Shown here: positions 3,934 through 32,342 of the stretch, piece after piece | How positions within the stretch are numbered: the stretch's first letter is position 1 | How the letters are laid out: every line of letters begins with the position of its first letter | From: a virus | Direction: 5' to 3' (one strand) | Virus record (IMG/VR): IMGVR_UViG_3300034102_000548 | Coordinates: 1-33,166 of that record | DNA length: 33,166 bases | The notes under the pieces: generated by a model | The model's input: the letters and a program-made list of their open reading frames with translations, nothing else | What the model was told of the DNA's origin: nothing | Databases searched by the model: none | Program-made: the position numbers and the translations under genes

Positions 3934-4590
3934 CTATTTGCCTACTTTCATTATCCAATTATACCCTGTTGTTAGACCCAATGCTCTACCGCCACGTTTA
4001 GCAGATGCAAACTTAGTCTTAAAGTCTTTTTCTCTCTTTAGGCTGTAGAACACCTCATTCAGGAATGATTGCTTTAGGTATGAGTTAAAGAATGTGTCTA
4101 GCACCTTTTGGTATTCACCTTCGGTAGCACCGCCAGGATTGACAACCGTTACTGAGTTAGGGGTGAACACAGTTTCTCCGTCTACCTCAAAAACCAATTT
4201 TGTCCTAGGGGTAATGGTCACAGGAACTCCGCTTTCCATGATGGCAGCCTTGTTGTAGAATGGCACTCTTGATCCAGACTTGATGCTTCTTGATTGGCTA
4301 AATGATGACGATATGGATAGACCGCCACCGACGACAGCATAGTCAATGTCAAACAGTCTTGCGTTTGGGCTTCCTGTCTGATACCACTCATATACGTGAT
4401 GAAGGGATTCTGGATTTACCCTGGCATTTGAATCAATGAAGTCTTTTAGAATTTCTGAAATACGAGCACCAAGCACCTTGAGCAGTGCTGGCTTGGCTTG
4501 CTGTGCACCTTCTAGGAATCCATTGGAGTATCCCAAAATGTTCTTCATGTCTTTGTTAAATGCTTTAAGGTCTAGGCTCATTGTCAACAT
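3934..4590 (-). CDS. Putative HK97 gp10-like neck / tail completion protein
   Basis: This 218-residue protein has a start ATG at 4590 overlapping the previous stop as TAATG, so it is translationally coupled. It begins with a helical segment (DLKAFNKDMKNILGYSNGF). The middle is rich in serine and basic residues (SFSQSRSIKSGSRVPFYNKA), followed by a strand region with a PRTKLVFEVDGE segment, and it ends with a basic stretch (KFASAKRGGRALGLTTGYNW). Size, basic character and place between head closure and tail terminator genes fit the gp10-type neck family. A second in-frame ATG at 4581 is also possible. Moderately sure it is a neck component; exact role not proven. Confidence 0.5.
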   Translation of the reverse strand: MLTMSLDLKAFNKDMKNILGYSNGFLEGAQQAKPALLKVLGARISEILKDFIDSNARVNPESLHHVYEWYQTGSPNARLFDIDYAVVGGGLSISSSFSQSRSIKSGSRVPFYNKAAIMESGVPVTITPRTKLVFEVDGETVFTPNSVTVVNPGGATEGEYQKVLDTFFNSYLKQSFLNEVFYSLKREKDFKTKFASAKRGGRALGLTTGYNWIMKVGK

Positions 4591-9167: not shown

Positions 9168-10814
9168 TTATTGAACAGAGCGTCCCTCACCCTTTGGATT
9201 GCGTCCAGCAACTGTTGCTGTGTTATCCGAAGAGTTTGAACTTCTCTCTGCATCTCTTTGACGAGTCTGTTGGGTGTTTGCTGTAGCGTCTGCTGCCTGA
9301 CGAGCGTTCAGTTCAAGAAAGTCGTCTGCCTCTTCCATCTGTGGAAGACCCAATGTCTCACGTGCTTCATTTCTAGTCATAACCTGATTACGAACATAAC
9401 GCTCAATAATCTGTGACTGTGCAATTTCATCTGTAAGGGTAAGTTCATTAAACTTGAGTTCAACAATGTCTGTCTTCTCGTTAATGATCTTATTGATAAC
9501 CTTTTCTAGGTTTCTTTGTGCTGGTCTTGCTACCTGCTCTTTAAACGTGCGGTCCTGTGCTAGGGCAGCAGCGATTGCAGCAGAGTCTCCTCCACCAATC
9601 TTGGATAGTGGTACTTGGTGTGCAACAAGAATATCGTCTCTGTTACGAATACGGTATTCGTTGAACGATGCTTCTTGAGTACCGCTCTCAACAGCCTCCA
9701 TCTTAAACTCTACCTTATTAGTGTCTGAGTCTCCTGGAAGTGGGATGTACAGGGTTCTGTGGTTCTGACCCTTTAGGCTTGTCTGTAGGAAGCGGAACAT
9801 CTTGTCCTCTGCCTCTTCAGAAAGTTTTGCACCCTTTAGGGTAACAATATAGCGAGGCACACCCTTGTTGGTAAAGTAGTCAATGTTGTACTGTGACGCT
9901 AGTGCGTCTCCCTGTAGTGCACCAACTGCAGACAGGATATCTGGAACACCATAGAATGAGTTTAGTGGAGAGTACTGCTTGATGTGAATAATCTCGTTTG
10001 GACGTGGATCGTTGGTGATTGGGTTTACGTTCTTTGCACCGAAGTTGCGGAAGTACACAACCTTGTTTCCAATAATCTGAACGTATCCATCACGAAGTCT
10101 GCGAACACGCATTGTGGTGGCAGGGATGTGACCAACATAGCCAATTGCACCAGTAGTGGTTCTACCGATTTCAAGATATCCGTTTCCAGTTGATTCGTAG
10201 TCTGTCCACAACTTCATTAGTGTTGATGTCATAGACTCTTCGTTGTTCAAAGACTCAAACCATTCGCTAACCTCTACCTTGGCTCTCTCAACACGCTTAC
10301 GTGCCTTATCAATTGCACTGGCATTGTCAGATGATTCAAGAGCCATAAGGACTCTCTTTGTAGCCTGAAGTTCATAGCCTAGACCAACAATGTTTTCCAC
10401 CTTTGCATCAATAGCAGCGTGGTTGGCAAATGAAGTGTCATAGTAGTTTGCAAGTTCGTATAGGTTCCATGGTGGAGTAATTACATCAAATAGACCGTAT
10501 CCATTTCTGTATACTTTTCCAGGGTTAATCTCTTTTGATTGTGCTCCATTGATACCAGAGTTAATTGCTAGGGCACTGTCCTGGTACTGTAGTGATGTAA
10601 CATCTACGTTGTTGTACTGTAGAGTTGACTCTACAACAGGATCATTGTTTAGTTTTTCAAGCCTGTCCGTTCTACGCTTAAAGTTCTTTTCAATTCCAGC
10701 AAATACCTTTAGTTCGTCCCAAGACTTGTTGAATGGGTCTTGTGCTTTAAACTTGTCTAGGTCTTGCTGAAGTTCGTCAATACCAAGGTCTCTTACGTAA
10801 TACTCTTCTGACAT
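9168..10814 (-). CDS. Portal protein (PBSX/HK97-type)
   Basis: I choose the ATG at 10814 (MSEEYYVRDLGIDELQQDL, 548 residues), one base past the preceding stop and 9 nt after GGAG; in-frame starts further up lie inside the preceding gene. Family features are an N-terminal region before YYDTSFANHAAIDAKVENI, a central wing (ESTGNGYLEIGR), the segment IIHIKQYSPLNSFYGVPDIL near residue 280, and the helical stem and crown with HQVPLSKIGGGDSAAIAAAL. The dodecameric portal sits at one head vertex, is the packaging channel and holds the neck. A terminase gene would normally be next to it, but none is here. Confidence 0.92.
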   Translation of the reverse strand: MSEEYYVRDLGIDELQQDLDKFKAQDPFNKSWDELKVFAGIEKNFKRRTDRLEKLNNDPVVESTLQYNNVDVTSLQYQDSALAINSGINGAQSKEINPGKVYRNGYGLFDVITPPWNLYELANYYDTSFANHAAIDAKVENIVGLGYELQATKRVLMALESSDNASAIDKARKRVERAKVEVSEWFESLNNEESMTSTLMKLWTDYESTGNGYLEIGRTTTGAIGYVGHIPATTMRVRRLRDGYVQIIGNKVVYFRNFGAKNVNPITNDPRPNEIIHIKQYSPLNSFYGVPDILSAVGALQGDALASQYNIDYFTNKGVPRYIVTLKGAKLSEEAEDKMFRFLQTSLKGQNHRTLYIPLPGDSDTNKVEFKMEAVESGTQEASFNEYRIRNRDDILVAHQVPLSKIGGGDSAAIAAALAQDRTFKEQVARPAQRNLEKVINKIINEKTDIVELKFNELTLTDEIAQSQIIERYVRNQVMTRNEARETLGLPQMEEADDFLELNARQAADATANTQQTRQRDAERSSNSSDNTATVAGRNPKGEGRSVQ

Positions 10815-17793: not shown

Positions 17794-19409
17794 TATGCTG
17801 TAAGGTCTCCGATCAGCACCCATGTGTCTGTAGCACGTTTTAGCAGGGTGGCTGAAGACCATTGAGCACGTAGTTTAGTTCCAGGGGTAGCATTCAAAGT
17901 ACCACCAGAAGGACCAGAGACAGTAATCTGTCCTGCACCTGTTTGAAGCAAAGTAATCTGTGTTCCTACTGGATAGGCTACAGAATCGTTAGTTGGAATT
18001 GTAACTGTAATAGCAGAAGCGTTTCCTACTTCTACAATCTTTCCAGCATCTCCTAGAACAAGTGTGTATGTTGTTCCAGATTGAGCATTTGTAAGAGTTG
18101 GAATAGATGCAACATACTTGTTTACCCAACCTGTGCCATTGTAGTACACTACATCATTGGCTGTGGCAGATGTAACGGTTACATCCGATAGGTCATCCAT
18201 TGCTGGGCTGGCATTTAGAGTTGCCCAAGAGGCGGTAGAGCCATCGGTAGTCAAGTACTTGCCAGTGTTACCACTTTGAGACGGTAGTGCGTCAATGCCT
18301 GTTACTGTTGCTGCAGAGAAATCTACGTCTCCAGTTGCAGTAATGTCTGCAACCTCAAGAGCACCGATTGCTAATGTGTCTAGAGATCCTTGTGCAAAGT
18401 TAACGGTTGTCGTTGGCTCGTCGATCACTCCCTTGAAAAGTTTCCACTTTCCTACTGAAGCATCACGAACGAGACCTGTGTGCTGATAGGTGCCATCATC
18501 AAATGATGCTACAAGACCGAGATCTGATACGTTTGCTTCGTTTCCCTCACCGATATAAATTAGTGGGTCTGTGATGCTAAGGTCTGTGGCGTTGACAGTA
18601 GTAGTTGTTCCGTTAACCGTGAAGTCACCAGTAATAATAAGATCTCCACCAACATACATATCCTTGGCTACACCAGCACCACCAGAGACAACCAAAGATC
18701 CTGTTGTAGTGCTAGTAGATTCTGTCGTGTCTGATGCTGTTACTAGACCTGTAAAGGTCGGGGCTGCTATTGGTGCTTTGTCATTAATCTGTGTCTGAAT
18801 GGCAGATGTTACTCCATCTACATAATTAAGTTCTGTTGTTGTTAGAGTTGCACCGTCGAGGATGTTTAGTTCACTTGCAGATGCTGTAACTCCATCTAGG
18901 ATGTTGAGTTCTGCTGTGCTTAGAGTGGCACCGTCAAGAATGTTGAGTTCTGCTGATGTTGCGGTGATCCCAACCAAAGTGTTTAGTTCTGCTGTAGATG
19001 CTAGGAGACCGTCTAAGCGATTAATCTCAGAAGCATCTGCAGTTACACCATCTAGGATGTTAAGTTCGTTTGTAGAGGCTGTGATTCCATCTAGGACGTT
19101 TAGTTCTGATGCCGTGGCAGTTAGACCGTTGATAAGTGCAAGTTCTGTGCCAGAGACATCACCAATTGATGTAGTTGAAGGAAGCGTTACGTTGCCAGTA
19201 AAGGTAGGAGATGCTAGTGGGGCTTTTAGGTCAATGTTTAGGTCGATTGTGTCTTTGAAGTATGCAAGTGAGTTCCAGCCAGTGGTTCCATCACCAATCT
19301 TGAACTGACCAGTGTCAGTCTCTACACCAAATTCGCCTGCTGCCAATACGGTATTTGCTGAGGTCCACTGCGATGCAGTCCCTCTTCTCTGTAGCATTCT
19401 TGTTGCCAT
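17793..19409 (-). CDS. Tail fibre with 13-residue repeats
   Basis: This 538-residue protein has residues 1-50 (MATRMLQRRGTASQWTSANT, then FGVETDTGQFKIGDGTTGWN) forming a fibre N-terminal domain like that of Mtd-type and many tail proteins. Residues ~85-210 hold about nine 13-residue repeats of the form ELNILDGVTAS. A central beta region follows (TTTGSLVVSGGAGVAKDMYV). The last ~75 residues are a C-terminal module, also present in the gene at 24864-25520 (VGTQITLLQTGAGQITVSGP, ending WVLIGDLTA). A trimeric fibre is expected. Confidence 0.82.
   Translation of the reverse strand: MATRMLQRRGTASQWTSANTVLAAGEFGVETDTGQFKIGDGTTGWNSLAYFKDTIDLNIDLKAPLASPTFTGNVTLPSTTSIGDVSGTELALINGLTATASELNVLDGITASTNELNILDGVTADASEINRLDGLLASTAELNTLVGITATSAELNILDGATLSTAELNILDGVTASASELNILDGATLTTTELNYVDGVTSAIQTQINDKAPIAAPTFTGLVTASDTTESTSTTTGSLVVSGGAGVAKDMYVGGDLIITGDFTVNGTTTTVNATDLSITDPLIYIGEGNEANVSDLGLVASFDDGTYQHTGLVRDASVGKWKLFKGVIDEPTTTVNFAQGSLDTLAIGALEVADITATGDVDFSAATVTGIDALPSQSGNTGKYLTTDGSTASWATLNASPAMDDLSDVTVTSATANDVVYYNGTGWVNKYVASIPTLTNAQSGTTYTLVLGDAGKIVEVGNASAITVTIPTNDSVAYPVGTQITLLQTGAGQITVSGPSGGTLNATPGTKLRAQWSSATLLKRATDTWVLIGDLTA
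18800..19158 (-). repeat. In-gene 39-bp tandem repeat of the tail fibre
   Basis: About nine degenerate copies encode ELN-x-LDG-x-T-A-x-x-x units of 13 residues. The copies differ at synonymous and conservative sites, so they are old. Boundaries are approximate. Confidence 0.7.
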
Positions 19410-28510: not shown

Positions 28511-29281
28511 ATGCAAAAAGAAATTCTAAATACGCTGTCACATTCAAACAAAATTATAATCTCGCCAGACATAGATGGATTTACCTCTGCGAGGCTCCTG
28601 GAGGCGTTTAACGGCTCTTTGGTGGTAGGAACGTACGACAAGAACGTTTTGTTGTTAGCGGACGGTGTGGAGCCTTCTGAGTGCCTTTTCGTCGATTGTG
28701 ACATGAACTCGTCGGATTTGGTTTCAATCGGAAATCACCAGCGTTTGAGTTCGGGGGACAACATGTCGTCAAAGTCTTTCAATCCAAATACTCATTTCGG
28801 TGTAAATCGCTATACGGATAAGTATCCTTTCGCTACAGCGTTTTTAATTTCGTTCGCAACAAGAGTACCCACATCCGAACATATCCAAGCATACATGTCA
28901 TATGCTGACTCTACCTATAAGAACTTAATTAATTACAGCGATAACATGCATAATTGGTGGCAACGGATGAAGCATCTTGAACTTGATCAAGTTTTTAATC
29001 CATCTCCACAAGTTTTGCAGATTCTAAAGTCTCTAGAGTCCGCAGAAACGCCACAGGGCTTTGTCTCCAAGCGATTTGGCAAAAAGCGGTACATTGAGGA
29101 AATGAATGCTGCCTTAGTTAGTCACAATATCCCCCATAAGACACTAGTATCTGGCAAAAAGTATTTAATGGACAAAGTTGGCAAAACAACTATGGTAAAA
29201 TATAGTCAGGACATAATCTCATACGCTGAAGTCTATGGCGGTGAGTTTTCCGTTACATATAATGAGGAGATGGATTGGTAA
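28511..29281 (+). CDS. Possible divergent DHH-type phosphoesterase
   Basis: This 256-residue protein has AAGGTG 7 nt before ATG. Residues 16-29 (IISPDIDGFTSARL) match DHH motif I (Asp20, Asp22). Residues 59-64 (LFVDCD) look like motif II. Residues 73-77 (IGNHQ) stand where DHH should be, with His76 kept but the Asp replaced. NPNTHFG at 91-97 and PFATAFLI then fit the segment after the motif. A C-terminal half (~150-256) has no clear DHHA1 motif. DHH enzymes cleave phosphodiesters such as nanoRNA or cyclic dinucleotides. The changed DHH triad means it could be inactive, altered or not of this family. Codons look more GC-rich than in neighbours. Confidence 0.45.
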   Translation: MQKEILNTLSHSNKIIISPDIDGFTSARLLEAFNGSLVVGTYDKNVLLLADGVEPSECLFVDCDMNSSDLVSIGNHQRLSSGDNMSSKSFNPNTHFGVNRYTDKYPFATAFLISFATRVPTSEHIQAYMSYADSTYKNLINYSDNMHNWWQRMKHLELDQVFNPSPQVLQILKSLESAETPQGFVSKRFGKKRYIEEMNAALVSHNIPHKTLVSGKKYLMDKVGKTTMVKYSQDIISYAEVYGGEFSVTYNEEMDW

Positions 29282-30468: not shown

Positions 30469-30579
30469 ATGTTTTCAGTTTGTGAACTATGTGATGTAGT
30501 AGTAGAAAAGGTATTCGTTCAGGAGGCTGACGAGTATGGTTGTGAAATCTGCTGGTCTGAGTATGGTGAGATTCACTAA
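30469..30579 (+). CDS. 36-residue double-CxxC miniprotein
   Basis: MFSVCELCDVVVEKVFVQEA followed by DEYGCEICWSEYGEIH. Cys5-Cys8 and Cys25-Cys28 form a C-x2-C-x16-C-x2-C zinc-ribbon pattern. AAAGG is 6 nt before the ATG. A TGTCRG-class promoter and CGTGTCG box are 43 nt or more upstream. A small zinc-knuckle protein that could bind nucleic acid or a host protein. Confidence 0.68.
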   Translation: MFSVCELCDVVVEKVFVQEADEYGCEICWSEYGEIH

Positions 30580-30585
30580 TACCCT

Positions 30586-30627
30586 CGGCGTGTCGGTTTG
30601 ACAAATGTCAGACCCATATACTACAAT
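30586..30627 (+). promoter_or_regulatory. TGTCRG-class promoter with CGGCGTGTCG box
   Basis: CGGCGTGTCG (30586-30595), then GTTTGACAA, TGTCAG (30606-30611), 10 nt, TACAAT (30622-30627). TTGACA is an 18-bp spaced perfect -35. Drives the tRNA-like element and the genes after it. Confidence 0.7.
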
Positions 30628-30645
30628 AAAGACATAAATAAATAA

Positions 30646-30761
30646 GGGCAGTTAGTGAAATGGGAATCACAAACTAAAAGAATGATAAACAGCAGAAGAA
30701 GCGTAAGCGAAGTATCTAGGCAATCAGGCGTTTATAGAGAGTTCGAATCTCTCACTGCTCA
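30646..30761 (+). ncRNA. tRNA-like element with abnormal anticodon/variable region
   Basis: The 5' GGGCAGT pairs with 3' ACTGCTC (7 bp, one G-U) as an acceptor stem. T and A follow, then a D arm with GTGA/TCAC and loop AATGGGAA. The T arm is GAGAG, TTCGAAT, CTCTC, directly next to the acceptor. All canonical. Between the D and T arms are 66 nt instead of ~22 (or ~35 for class II); I find no normal 5-bp/7-nt anticodon arm. ATAAAC (30685) can pair with GTTTAT (30730) beside the T arm. No CCA is encoded. It starts ~12 nt after the expected +1 of the promoter. It may be an intron-bearing tRNA, a tRNA mimic in a leader, or a decayed gene. Confidence 0.5.
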
Positions 30762-30785
30762 CTCAAACAAAAAGAAAGGCAACAC

Positions 30786-30920
30786 ATGAATCTAGAAATC
30801 ATACTCAAGGACGGTACGTCAATCTACCCATCATATGACCCACAGCACAAGGATGCAATCATTGAATTCTATAAGGCACGATTTGAAGAGGGTACCATCA
30901 CAGGATGGGCTATCATCTAA
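30786..30920 (+). CDS. 44-residue small protein, unknown
   Basis: MNLEIILKDGTSIYPSYDPQ, ending EEGTITGWAII. AAAGG is 7 nt before the ATG. It has a strand-turn-strand start, a helix (KDAIIEFYKARFEEG) and a final strand. No cysteines. It is the only gene directly downstream of the tRNA-like element, and its stop abuts the next promoter (TAA then ATGTC). Unknown family. Confidence 0.62.
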   Translation: MNLEIILKDGTSIYPSYDPQHKDAIIEFYKARFEEGTITGWAII

Positions 30921-30986: not shown

Positions 30987-31148
30987 ATGGGAATAGGCTT
31001 GGCTCTAATCACTCGTGCTCTAATGGCTAAGAAGGCATTGCCGAAGGTAATGGAAGTGTTTGCATGTAAGGGATGCAATAGCCTTGGTGCCGTCAAGGTA
31101 TTCACTAACCGCATTGAAGTAGTTAGGTGTAAGTGCAATGGACATTGA
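30987..31148 (+). CDS. 53-residue CxxC/CxC miniprotein
   Basis: MGIGLALITRALMAKKALPK, then VMEVFACKGCNSLGAVKVFT and NRIEVVRCKCNGH. Cys27, Cys30, Cys48 and Cys50 (His53 near) give a zinc-ribbon pattern. The first 20 residues are an amphipathic or membrane-leaning helix. AAAGGA is 5 nt before the ATG. The next gene starts 11 bases before its stop. Confidence 0.68.
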   Translation: MGIGLALITRALMAKKALPKVMEVFACKGCNSLGAVKVFTNRIEVVRCKCNGH

Positions 31149-31386: not shown

Positions 31387-31530
31387 ATGATTGCTAAACT
31401 AACAAATGGAACCCTTATCCCCCTACACTGGGATGACCGCTACTATGTGGCTAACTGCCCTGAGTGTGGTGATGAAGTGTCTGCTTCTACTGCTAAGGAT
31501 GTAGTAGAGATACTAGACATCCACTGCTAG
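31387..31530 (+). CDS. 47-residue CxxC miniprotein
   Basis: MIAKLTNGTLIPLHWDDRYY, then VANCPECGDEVSASTAKDVV and EILDIHC. Cys24 and Cys27 form CPEC, and Cys47 is the last residue; His46 precedes it. A short strand region, a knuckle and a helix. AAAGGAAG is 5 nt before the ATG. Its stop lies immediately before the next promoter box. Confidence 0.68.
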   Translation: MIAKLTNGTLIPLHWDDRYYVANCPECGDEVSASTAKDVVEILDIHC

Positions 31531-31531
31531 T

Positions 31532-31557
31532 GGCGTGTCAGTCCCCTATGCTACAAT
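31532..31557 (+). promoter_or_regulatory. TGTCRG-class promoter with merged box
   Basis: GGCGTGTCAG joins the CGTGTC and TGTCAG elements in one site (31532-31541). 10 nt then TACAAT (31552-31557), extended by TGC. A compact variant. Confidence 0.62.
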
Positions 31558-31579
31558 CGAAATAACAAGAAAGGTCATA

Positions 31580-31744
31580 ATGACACTAGAAGAAATGATG
31601 AACCAGGCAGACGCAATTGCGTTTGATAAGGAAATGGCAGAACTAGACGCTATGCCACTAATCAAGGGTGGCTACTGCCCACAATGCGAGTGGACTGCTA
31701 ACAACTGCCACTGCGAAGAATACGGCTTGCCACTACCGAACTAA
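31580..31744 (+). CDS. 54-residue CxxC/CxC miniprotein
   Basis: The start is the ATG at 31580 (MTLEEMMNQADAIAFDKEMA), with AAAGG 5 nt before; an earlier in-frame ATG lies in the promoter. Cys33, Cys36, Cys43 and Cys45 form C-x2-C-x6-C-x-C (GYCPQCEWTANNCHCEEYG). The spacing is identical to the 30-residue gene at 29864. The first 25 residues are an acidic helix. A metal-binding knuckle with an N-terminal helix is likely. Confidence 0.7.
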   Translation: MTLEEMMNQADAIAFDKEMAELDAMPLIKGGYCPQCEWTANNCHCEEYGLPLPN

Positions 31745-31789: not shown

Positions 31790-31939
31790 ATGACTACATT
31801 TACCAATGAAACCCAAAAGGACCGCAGAGCATACAGCGACTATTGGGGTATTGAGATTGCTGATGTCTACTACTGCGAAGAGTGTGGCTACTGGACACAC
31901 CTAGATGAAGATGAAATGCCTACCTGTAAGTGTGCCTAA
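31790..31939 (+). CDS. 49-residue CxxC/CxC miniprotein
   Basis: MTTFTNETQKDRRAYSDYWG, then IEIADVYYCEECGYWTHLDE and DEMPTCKCA. Cys29, Cys32, Cys46 and Cys48 form a zinc-ribbon-like C-x2-C-x13-C-x-C. AAAGG is about 8 nt before the ATG. Part of the same series as 29864, 30987 and 31580. Confidence 0.7.
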   Translation: MTTFTNETQKDRRAYSDYWGIEIADVYYCEECGYWTHLDEDEMPTCKCA

Positions 31940-32141: not shown

Positions 32142-32342
32142 ATGACTTTCACTACCACTAACTTCACCGCCCTAGAAATCCGTCAAGGATACCGCCTAGA
32201 CAACACCTACTTCGGTGTCTGCTCAAATTGTGGAGACCACATCCACAAGAGCCGTTTCGGCAACGCTTGGCTTCACACTATCGCAACAGGAGAACACTCT
32301 TCTCGCACAAGCGAGTATTGCCCAGAGCCATACGAATCTTGA
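32142..32342 (+). CDS. 66-residue CxxC-His miniprotein
   Basis: The start is the ATG at 32142 (MTFTTTNFTALEIRQGYRLD), with AAAGGAGAG before it; an earlier in-frame ATG at 32076 is in the promoter. Cys27, Cys30, His33 and His35 (VCSNCGDHIHK), with His45 and Cys60 further on, could make one or two metal sites. Basic and polar overall. Confidence 0.68.
   Translation: MTFTTTNFTALEIRQGYRLDNTYFGVCSNCGDHIHKSRFGNAWLHTIATGEHSSRTSEYCPEPYES

Follow-up and report, generated by a model that had tools for sequence, protein, structure and literature searches.

A tRNA-like RNA in a region of small phage genes

The window, meaning the whole stretch of 33,166 bases that was analysed, is an IMG/VR record that encodes, among its structural proteins, a major capsid protein (Phage_capsid), a portal protein and a prohead protease. 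The nearest annotated relatives of the capsid protein come from Streptomyces phages such as BillNye and LukeCage (43-44% identity), the latter a member of the Stanwilliamsviridae; given these relatives, the host is likely actinobacterial. The right end of the window (~30-33 kb) consists of tiny genes, many of them behind a promoter-like motif containing AATGTC, and resembles the small-gene left end of LukeCage. Judged only from its layout, this would be an early-type region. Tiny cysteine-rich, zinc-ribbon-like proteins are encoded at 30469-30579, 30987-31148, 31387-31530, 31535-31744, 31790-31939 and 32142-32342; the two that were compared with PHROGs families (30987-31148 and 32142-32342) had no match. 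Inverted and direct copies of CGGCGTGTCG / CGACACGCC recur near promoters between 30238 and 33084 and are possibly operators for a phage regulator.

This region contains a tRNA-like RNA gene (Table 1). The original prediction had described a textbook acceptor stem of 7 bp, a D arm with GG in its loop and a T arm with the loop TTCGAAT, with 66 nt between the D and T arms and no standard anticodon arm; the sequence bears out every one of these features. U8 and A9 lie between the acceptor and the D stem, the 4-bp D stem (GTGA/TCAC) encloses the loop AATGGGAA with GG inside, the T stem (GAGAG/CTCTC) has 5 bp, and A73 is position 30761.

Table 1. Positions of the tRNA-like element, its neighbors and its relatives
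Contig	Feature	Position	Strand	Remarks
Window	Sigma-70-type promoter, TTGACA-18-TACAAT	30598-30627	+	11/12 consensus match; overlaps the recurrent AATGTC motif of the phage
Window	AU-rich 5′ leader ATAAATAAATAA before G1	30632-30645	+	Conserved in the family
Window	Whole tRNA-like RNA	30646-30761	+	Acceptor, D and T arms all present
Window	Acceptor stem, 5′ strand GGGCAGU (DNA GGGCAGT)	30646-30652	+	Partner strand 30754-30760; 7 bp, one G-U
Window	D arm, GUGA-AAUGGGAA-UCAC	30655-30670	+	Two-sided compensatory change in 4/4 pairs in the family
Window	66-nt insert replacing anticodon arm and variable loop	30671-30736	+	53-67 nt across six members
Window	37-nt insert core AAACAGCAGAAGAAGCGTAAGCGAAGTATCTAGGCAA	30687-30723	+	36/37 identical to L005 member 5a
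Window	T arm, GAGAG-UUCGAAU-CUCUC	30737-30753	+	Two-sided change in 3/5 pairs in the family; closing G-C invariant
Window	Acceptor stem, 3′ strand ACUGCUC (DNA ACTGCTC), and A73	30754-30761	+	CCA not encoded
Window	44-aa gene	30786-30920	+	Downstream of the RNA
L005 (IMGVR_UViG_3300042301_001415)	Two tandem elements			Query protein (28511-29281 of the window) 70% identical; each element with its own promoter and leader ATAAATAAATAA
L005	Member 5a	9439-9554		D-T gap 67
L005	Member 5b	9598-9708		D-T gap 61
L412 (IMGVR_UViG_3300012664_000243)	Element	4227-4335		Gap 60; same genomic site as in the window; found with the 44-aa protein
L416 (IMGVR_UViG_3300046318_000165)	Two tandem elements		-	Gaps 53 and 54

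We scored the arms with a descriptor that allows a D-T gap of 18-130 nt and has a maximum score of 18. A single site in the whole window was found, with a score of 18/18. When the whole window was shuffled 6000 times with dinucleotides preserved, 2 matches reached this score, or ~3e-4 per window, a single-window estimate in which relatives are not yet counted. The folding energy of the element is ordinary (z, -1.2). ARAGORN called no tRNA at this position, and Rfam gave no match at the gathering score, with only a weak sub-threshold match at an E of ≤10.

The original prediction also placed a strong promoter near the start of the RNA. The TTGACA-18-TACAAT site is indeed close to consensus, and the same arrangement is found ahead of the L005, L412 and L416 members; promoter-like sites of minimum quality are, however, expected by chance in shuffles, so support for the promoter comes mainly from its kept position in relatives. 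That position implies a transcript start ~11-13 nt upstream of G1. The leader of the window element is identical at 12-13 of 14 positions to those of four of the five other members and at 10 of 14 to that of L416b.

The 44-residue gene predicted after the RNA is present. Its product has no Pfam or PHROGs family. The gene has counterparts of 75% identity in L002 and L004, each directly behind its own promoter without the RNA, and this arrangement is seen in four relatives altogether. The two RNAs of L005 are stand-alone units, with another promoter immediately after each. In the window, L412 and L416b, the element sits between the promoter and the ribosome-binding site of a small gene. The suggestion that the RNA is a decoy leader of the 44-aa gene is hence not supported as a general rule, because the gene occurs without the RNA and the L005 RNAs run directly into a promoter.

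A small family with occupied and empty sites

With the protein encoded at 28511-29281 of the window as the query, 80 loci were collected. L416 was located by a pattern of the leader plus a distant T arm. The family has six members in four contigs (one in the window, two in L005, one in L412 and two in L416). At the matching site, five relatives have no such RNA. The site is empty in L002, L004/L413, L411 and L415 (L411 and L415 were recovered with the 44-aa protein), and L003 has neither the 44-aa gene nor the RNA there. Only a few sites of either kind, occupied or empty, enter these counts, and all six members were read from assembled metagenome DNA alone.

The same arm descriptor gave no additional member in >1 Mb of further relative contigs. 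BLAST against phages returned nothing for the window element and only matches at the level of tRNA arms for L005; BLAST against plasmids returned nothing. Short tRNA-like matches to the family model in two other genomes (G094 and G099) proved to be ordinary tRNA-Arg genes and were discarded. ARAGORN with default settings missed the family in every locus scanned, and Rfam with default settings missed the window copy. With permissive filters, the gathering score of the Rfam tRNA model was reached, over short stretches, only by L005 5b (49.3 bits) and L416a (33.8 bits); the model accepts 5b by passing over the anticodon arm.

Comparison indicates selection on the tRNA arms

We aligned the six shells, with most of the insert omitted, so the junction columns of the alignment are uninformative. 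All 96 of the 96 cells in its 16 pairs are standard pairs, and none is broken. Loss of the stems in related phages, which the original prediction had named as evidence against it, is therefore not what we found. Two-sided compensatory change occurs in 8 of the 16 pairs, a count that takes the sequences as independent even though the window element and 5a, and likewise L416a and L416b, are related pairs. Acceptor pair 4-69, for example, is C-G, U-A or A-U across the family, whose acceptor can be written as GGGNAGU/ACUNCYC-A73. The covariation score was 0.721, compared to 0.219 ± 0.049 for shuffled alignments, and sliding the partners by 1-3 columns dropped pairing to 43-52%. Among the unpaired signals specific to tRNA, all six members retain A14, G18 G19 and the T loop, and four retain U8. 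We conclude from this comparison that selection maintains all three arms (acceptor, D and T) as paired RNA, their covariation being the strongest evidence in these sequences that the arms function as RNA. By the same evidence, the tRNA look-alike at 30646-30761 is a genuine RNA family.

An exchangeable insert in place of the anticodon arm

The window element and 5a are 39/50 identical in the acceptor, D and T arms, compared to 36/37 in the insert core, which makes the core the most constrained part. Since these two orthologous inserts differ only once in the 37-nt core, the insert is also under sequence constraint. The two L416 members likewise have a core of ~38 nt in common. In contrast to the pair formed by the window element and 5a, the window and L412 carry different inserts at the same genomic site. 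There, the 3′ flank (24/24) and the acceptor (15/15) are identical and the leader matches at 12/14 positions, whereas the D region is 39% and the insert 54% identical, with shuffled inserts at 50 ± 3%. With flank and acceptor identical and inserts at chance level, it follows that selection preserves the tRNA shell and that the anticodon domain is exchanged. The inserts fall into at least four unrelated types (window/5a, 5b, L412 and L416a/b). By comparison of these members, then, the anticodon domain is replaced by a 53- to 67-nt insert that is exchanged at one genomic site.

A 20-base pattern taken from the core had no other exact match in IMG/VR. It did occur in two copies as a repeat in one Bacillota MAG; this likeness was rejected because 19 specified bases should turn up about twice by chance in 257 Gb and the copies have no tRNA arms in their vicinity. 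An 11-nt stretch, GCAGAAGAAGC, resembles helix 18 of 16S rRNA; the likeness was not clearly above chance and was also rejected. No duplex partner for the insert, as antisense to phage transcripts, was found above shuffled controls in the window, L005 and L416 records.

Compared with a canonical tRNA, the acceptor, D and T arms and the conserved bases of tertiary contacts are all present. An anticodon arm with a 7-nt loop is found neither directly nor after removal of one contiguous intron. The intron analysis covered contiguous excisions, and in none of the six members did any of them yield a 7-nt loop with U33, a purine at position 37 and a 5-bp stem. The nearest case is an isolated, mispaired 4-of-5 stem in L416a only. 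A clean 7-nt-loop arm with a simple intron had been named beforehand as a finding that would count against the original prediction, and none of the six members has one. The Rfam models revealed no intron match, including to a group I core, in any member, and the insert has only 53-67 nt. Partial likenesses to an anticodon arm do exist. L416a and L416b have a 4- to 5-bp stem at the anticodon-stem position, with a 37- to 38-nt loop; this stem covaries (CAGA/UCUG and AUAGA/UCUAU), and the Rfam alignment of L416a includes it. The L412 insert contains a hairpin, ACGGU-UCUGAU-ACCGU, that is similar to the Gln anticodon stem of a relative phage, its loop being one base short. In the window element and 5a, only AAAC/GUUU is available as a pairing.

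Comparison with known tRNA-like RNAs

Phage tRNAs (Rfam RF00005) share with this family the acceptor, D and T arms, A14, G18G19, the T loop, A73, an own promoter and, in four of six members, U8. They differ in the anticodon arm, which is here an exchangeable insert; because of this replacement, the RNA cannot decode. tmRNA (RF00023) also joins a tRNA-like head to other RNA in place of the anticodon domain. Unlike tmRNA, the present RNAs are three times shorter, have a full D stem, lack G3-U70 and have no common frame or tag; position 3-70 is G-C in all six members, and the only match to the tmRNA model was an 11.6-bit T-arm fragment in L412. In YrlA, a bacterial Y RNA, the tRNA-like module lies inside the molecule and the stem that binds Ro is made by the ends; in the phage RNAs, the ends form the acceptor. 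No member matched a Y RNA in Rfam at an E of ≤10. The likeness lies in YrlA being a noncoding tRNA mimic (PMC7790460). A pseudo-tRNA of Bacillus cereus, tRNA-Other, is tRNA shaped, is not functional in translation and has a cellular role (PMC3399842). It has an anticodon, for Trp, and is located on the chromosome next to a genomic island, whereas the phage RNA has no anticodon arm, is phage borne and is hypervariable. A tRNA fold and selection on that fold, as expected of a pseudo-tRNA, are seen in the family; its absence from translation we infer from the missing anticodon arm alone.

Possible functions of the element

Our leading explanation, which we favor only tentatively, is that a stand-alone RNA gene in a promoter-rich, early-type region of the phage encodes a nondecoding tRNA mimic that occupies a host tRNA-binding protein. 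Transcription from the promoter at 30598-30627 would start ~12 nt upstream of G1, host RNase P and 3′ processing enzymes would trim the precursor, and CCA would then be added. The L-shaped product would hold the insert at the anticodon position and occupy its target, for which tRNA-targeting defense nucleases or other tRNA-binding toxins are the leading candidates. The exchangeable insert may set the target or evade it, and an arms race would agree with the rapid replacement of this one domain while the shell stays fixed. Defenses that target tRNAs are known to shape phage tRNAs (PMC10264068, PMC11555353), and the tRNA-like domain of YrlA has been proposed to inhibit an anticodon nuclease by competition (PMC7790460). 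Three points count against a mimic. Any nuclease that recognizes tRNA through the anticodon loop would depend on a part that this RNA no longer has; in the case of retron-Eco7, a phage tRNA does its work in translation and is no longer effective once its anticodon is altered (PMC11555353); and with the core kept in L005, base pairing or a fixed protein site fits as well as a decoy does. As for the options of the original prediction, the covarying stems support a tRNA mimic, so that the prediction stands in part, while a tRNA with a simple insertion or intron does not agree with the excision results and a decoy leader is not supported as the general case. The mimic is probably directed against the host, or exploits it, rather than being a working tRNA.

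Chief among the rivals is a regulatory RNA on a tRNA scaffold, in which the shell would serve processing or stability only and the insert would pair with host or phage RNA or bind a specific protein. We regard this as rather unlikely; the better conservation of the core than of the arms between the window element and 5a, and the common core of the L416 members, argue for it, and the four unrelated insert types and the lack of a duplex partner in the records searched argue against it. It is distinctly improbable that the element is processing punctuation, at which RNase P and 3′ enzymes would cut an early transcript and set the 5′ end of the downstream mRNA. Such a role agrees with the placement ahead of a small gene in the window, L412 and L416b, but both L005 copies run directly into another promoter, relatives have the same gene without the element, and the insert would be superfluous, its conservation not required.

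The remaining explanations are less likely still. Were the element the nonfunctional remnant of a phage tRNA gene that had taken up a random insertion, as the Gln-like hairpin of L412 might suggest, decay should have broken stems; instead, no cell is broken, eight pairs are compensated, the promoter, leader and insert core are all kept, and two phages have two copies each. We thus think decay highly improbable. Slightly more improbable still is an unusual intron or insertion whose removal would give a decoding tRNA: the anticodon-position stems of L416a and L416b are in its favor, but contiguous excision and the search for group I introns gave the negative results described above. A small protein from the 44-codon GTG frame at 30655-30789 has hardly any likelihood. 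This frame is open in the window and in 5a, where the single core difference is synonymous, but it is shifted between the two in the core flanks, no open reading frame is common to the six members, there is no protein match in phages, and the stems covary; the frame was rejected.

Whether phage tRNAs are codon helpers or defense-resistant spares is debated. An RNA that keeps all the features recognized by tRNA enzymes and lacks the decoding arm separates these ideas: provided that it is under selection, its role must lie with tRNA-binding factors and not in translation. It would also be a natural tRNA scaffold with interchangeable inserts. More doubtful than a mimic as such is the wider proposal of a new class of phage anti-host RNA, with a tRNA chassis and a cassette-like anticodon domain whose inserts would be swapped to intercept different tRNA-binding defense factors or host RNAs; we consider it a possibility at the upper edge of unlikely.

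Other unusual tRNA-like genes

Several other odd tRNA-like genes were seen. One at 19275-19341 of locus L219 (95275-95341 of genome G003), inside a tRNA array, has a D-T gap of only 18 nt and no anticodon arm; relatives have a tRNA-Gly there, and the element scores 45.7 bits with the Rfam tRNA model and is not called by ARAGORN. Another, also in a tRNA array (L370, 18247-18339; genome G086), has a D-T gap of 43 nt, and its ARAGORN call, with introns allowed, requires a 16-nt intron. An unrelated phage (L243, 892-997) has a tRNA-like gene with a D-T gap of 56 nt, a 5-bp anticodon stem, a loop of ~22 nt enlarged by a hairpin, and a long variable arm. Lastly, a phage tRNA-Met (L360, 9190-9264; genome G083) has the acceptor GGGGAGT/ACTCCCC-A73, which equals the family acceptor except at pair 4 and at the G2-U71 wobble of some members. 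From this likeness, a phage tRNA-Met of the L360 type is a possible origin of the shell.
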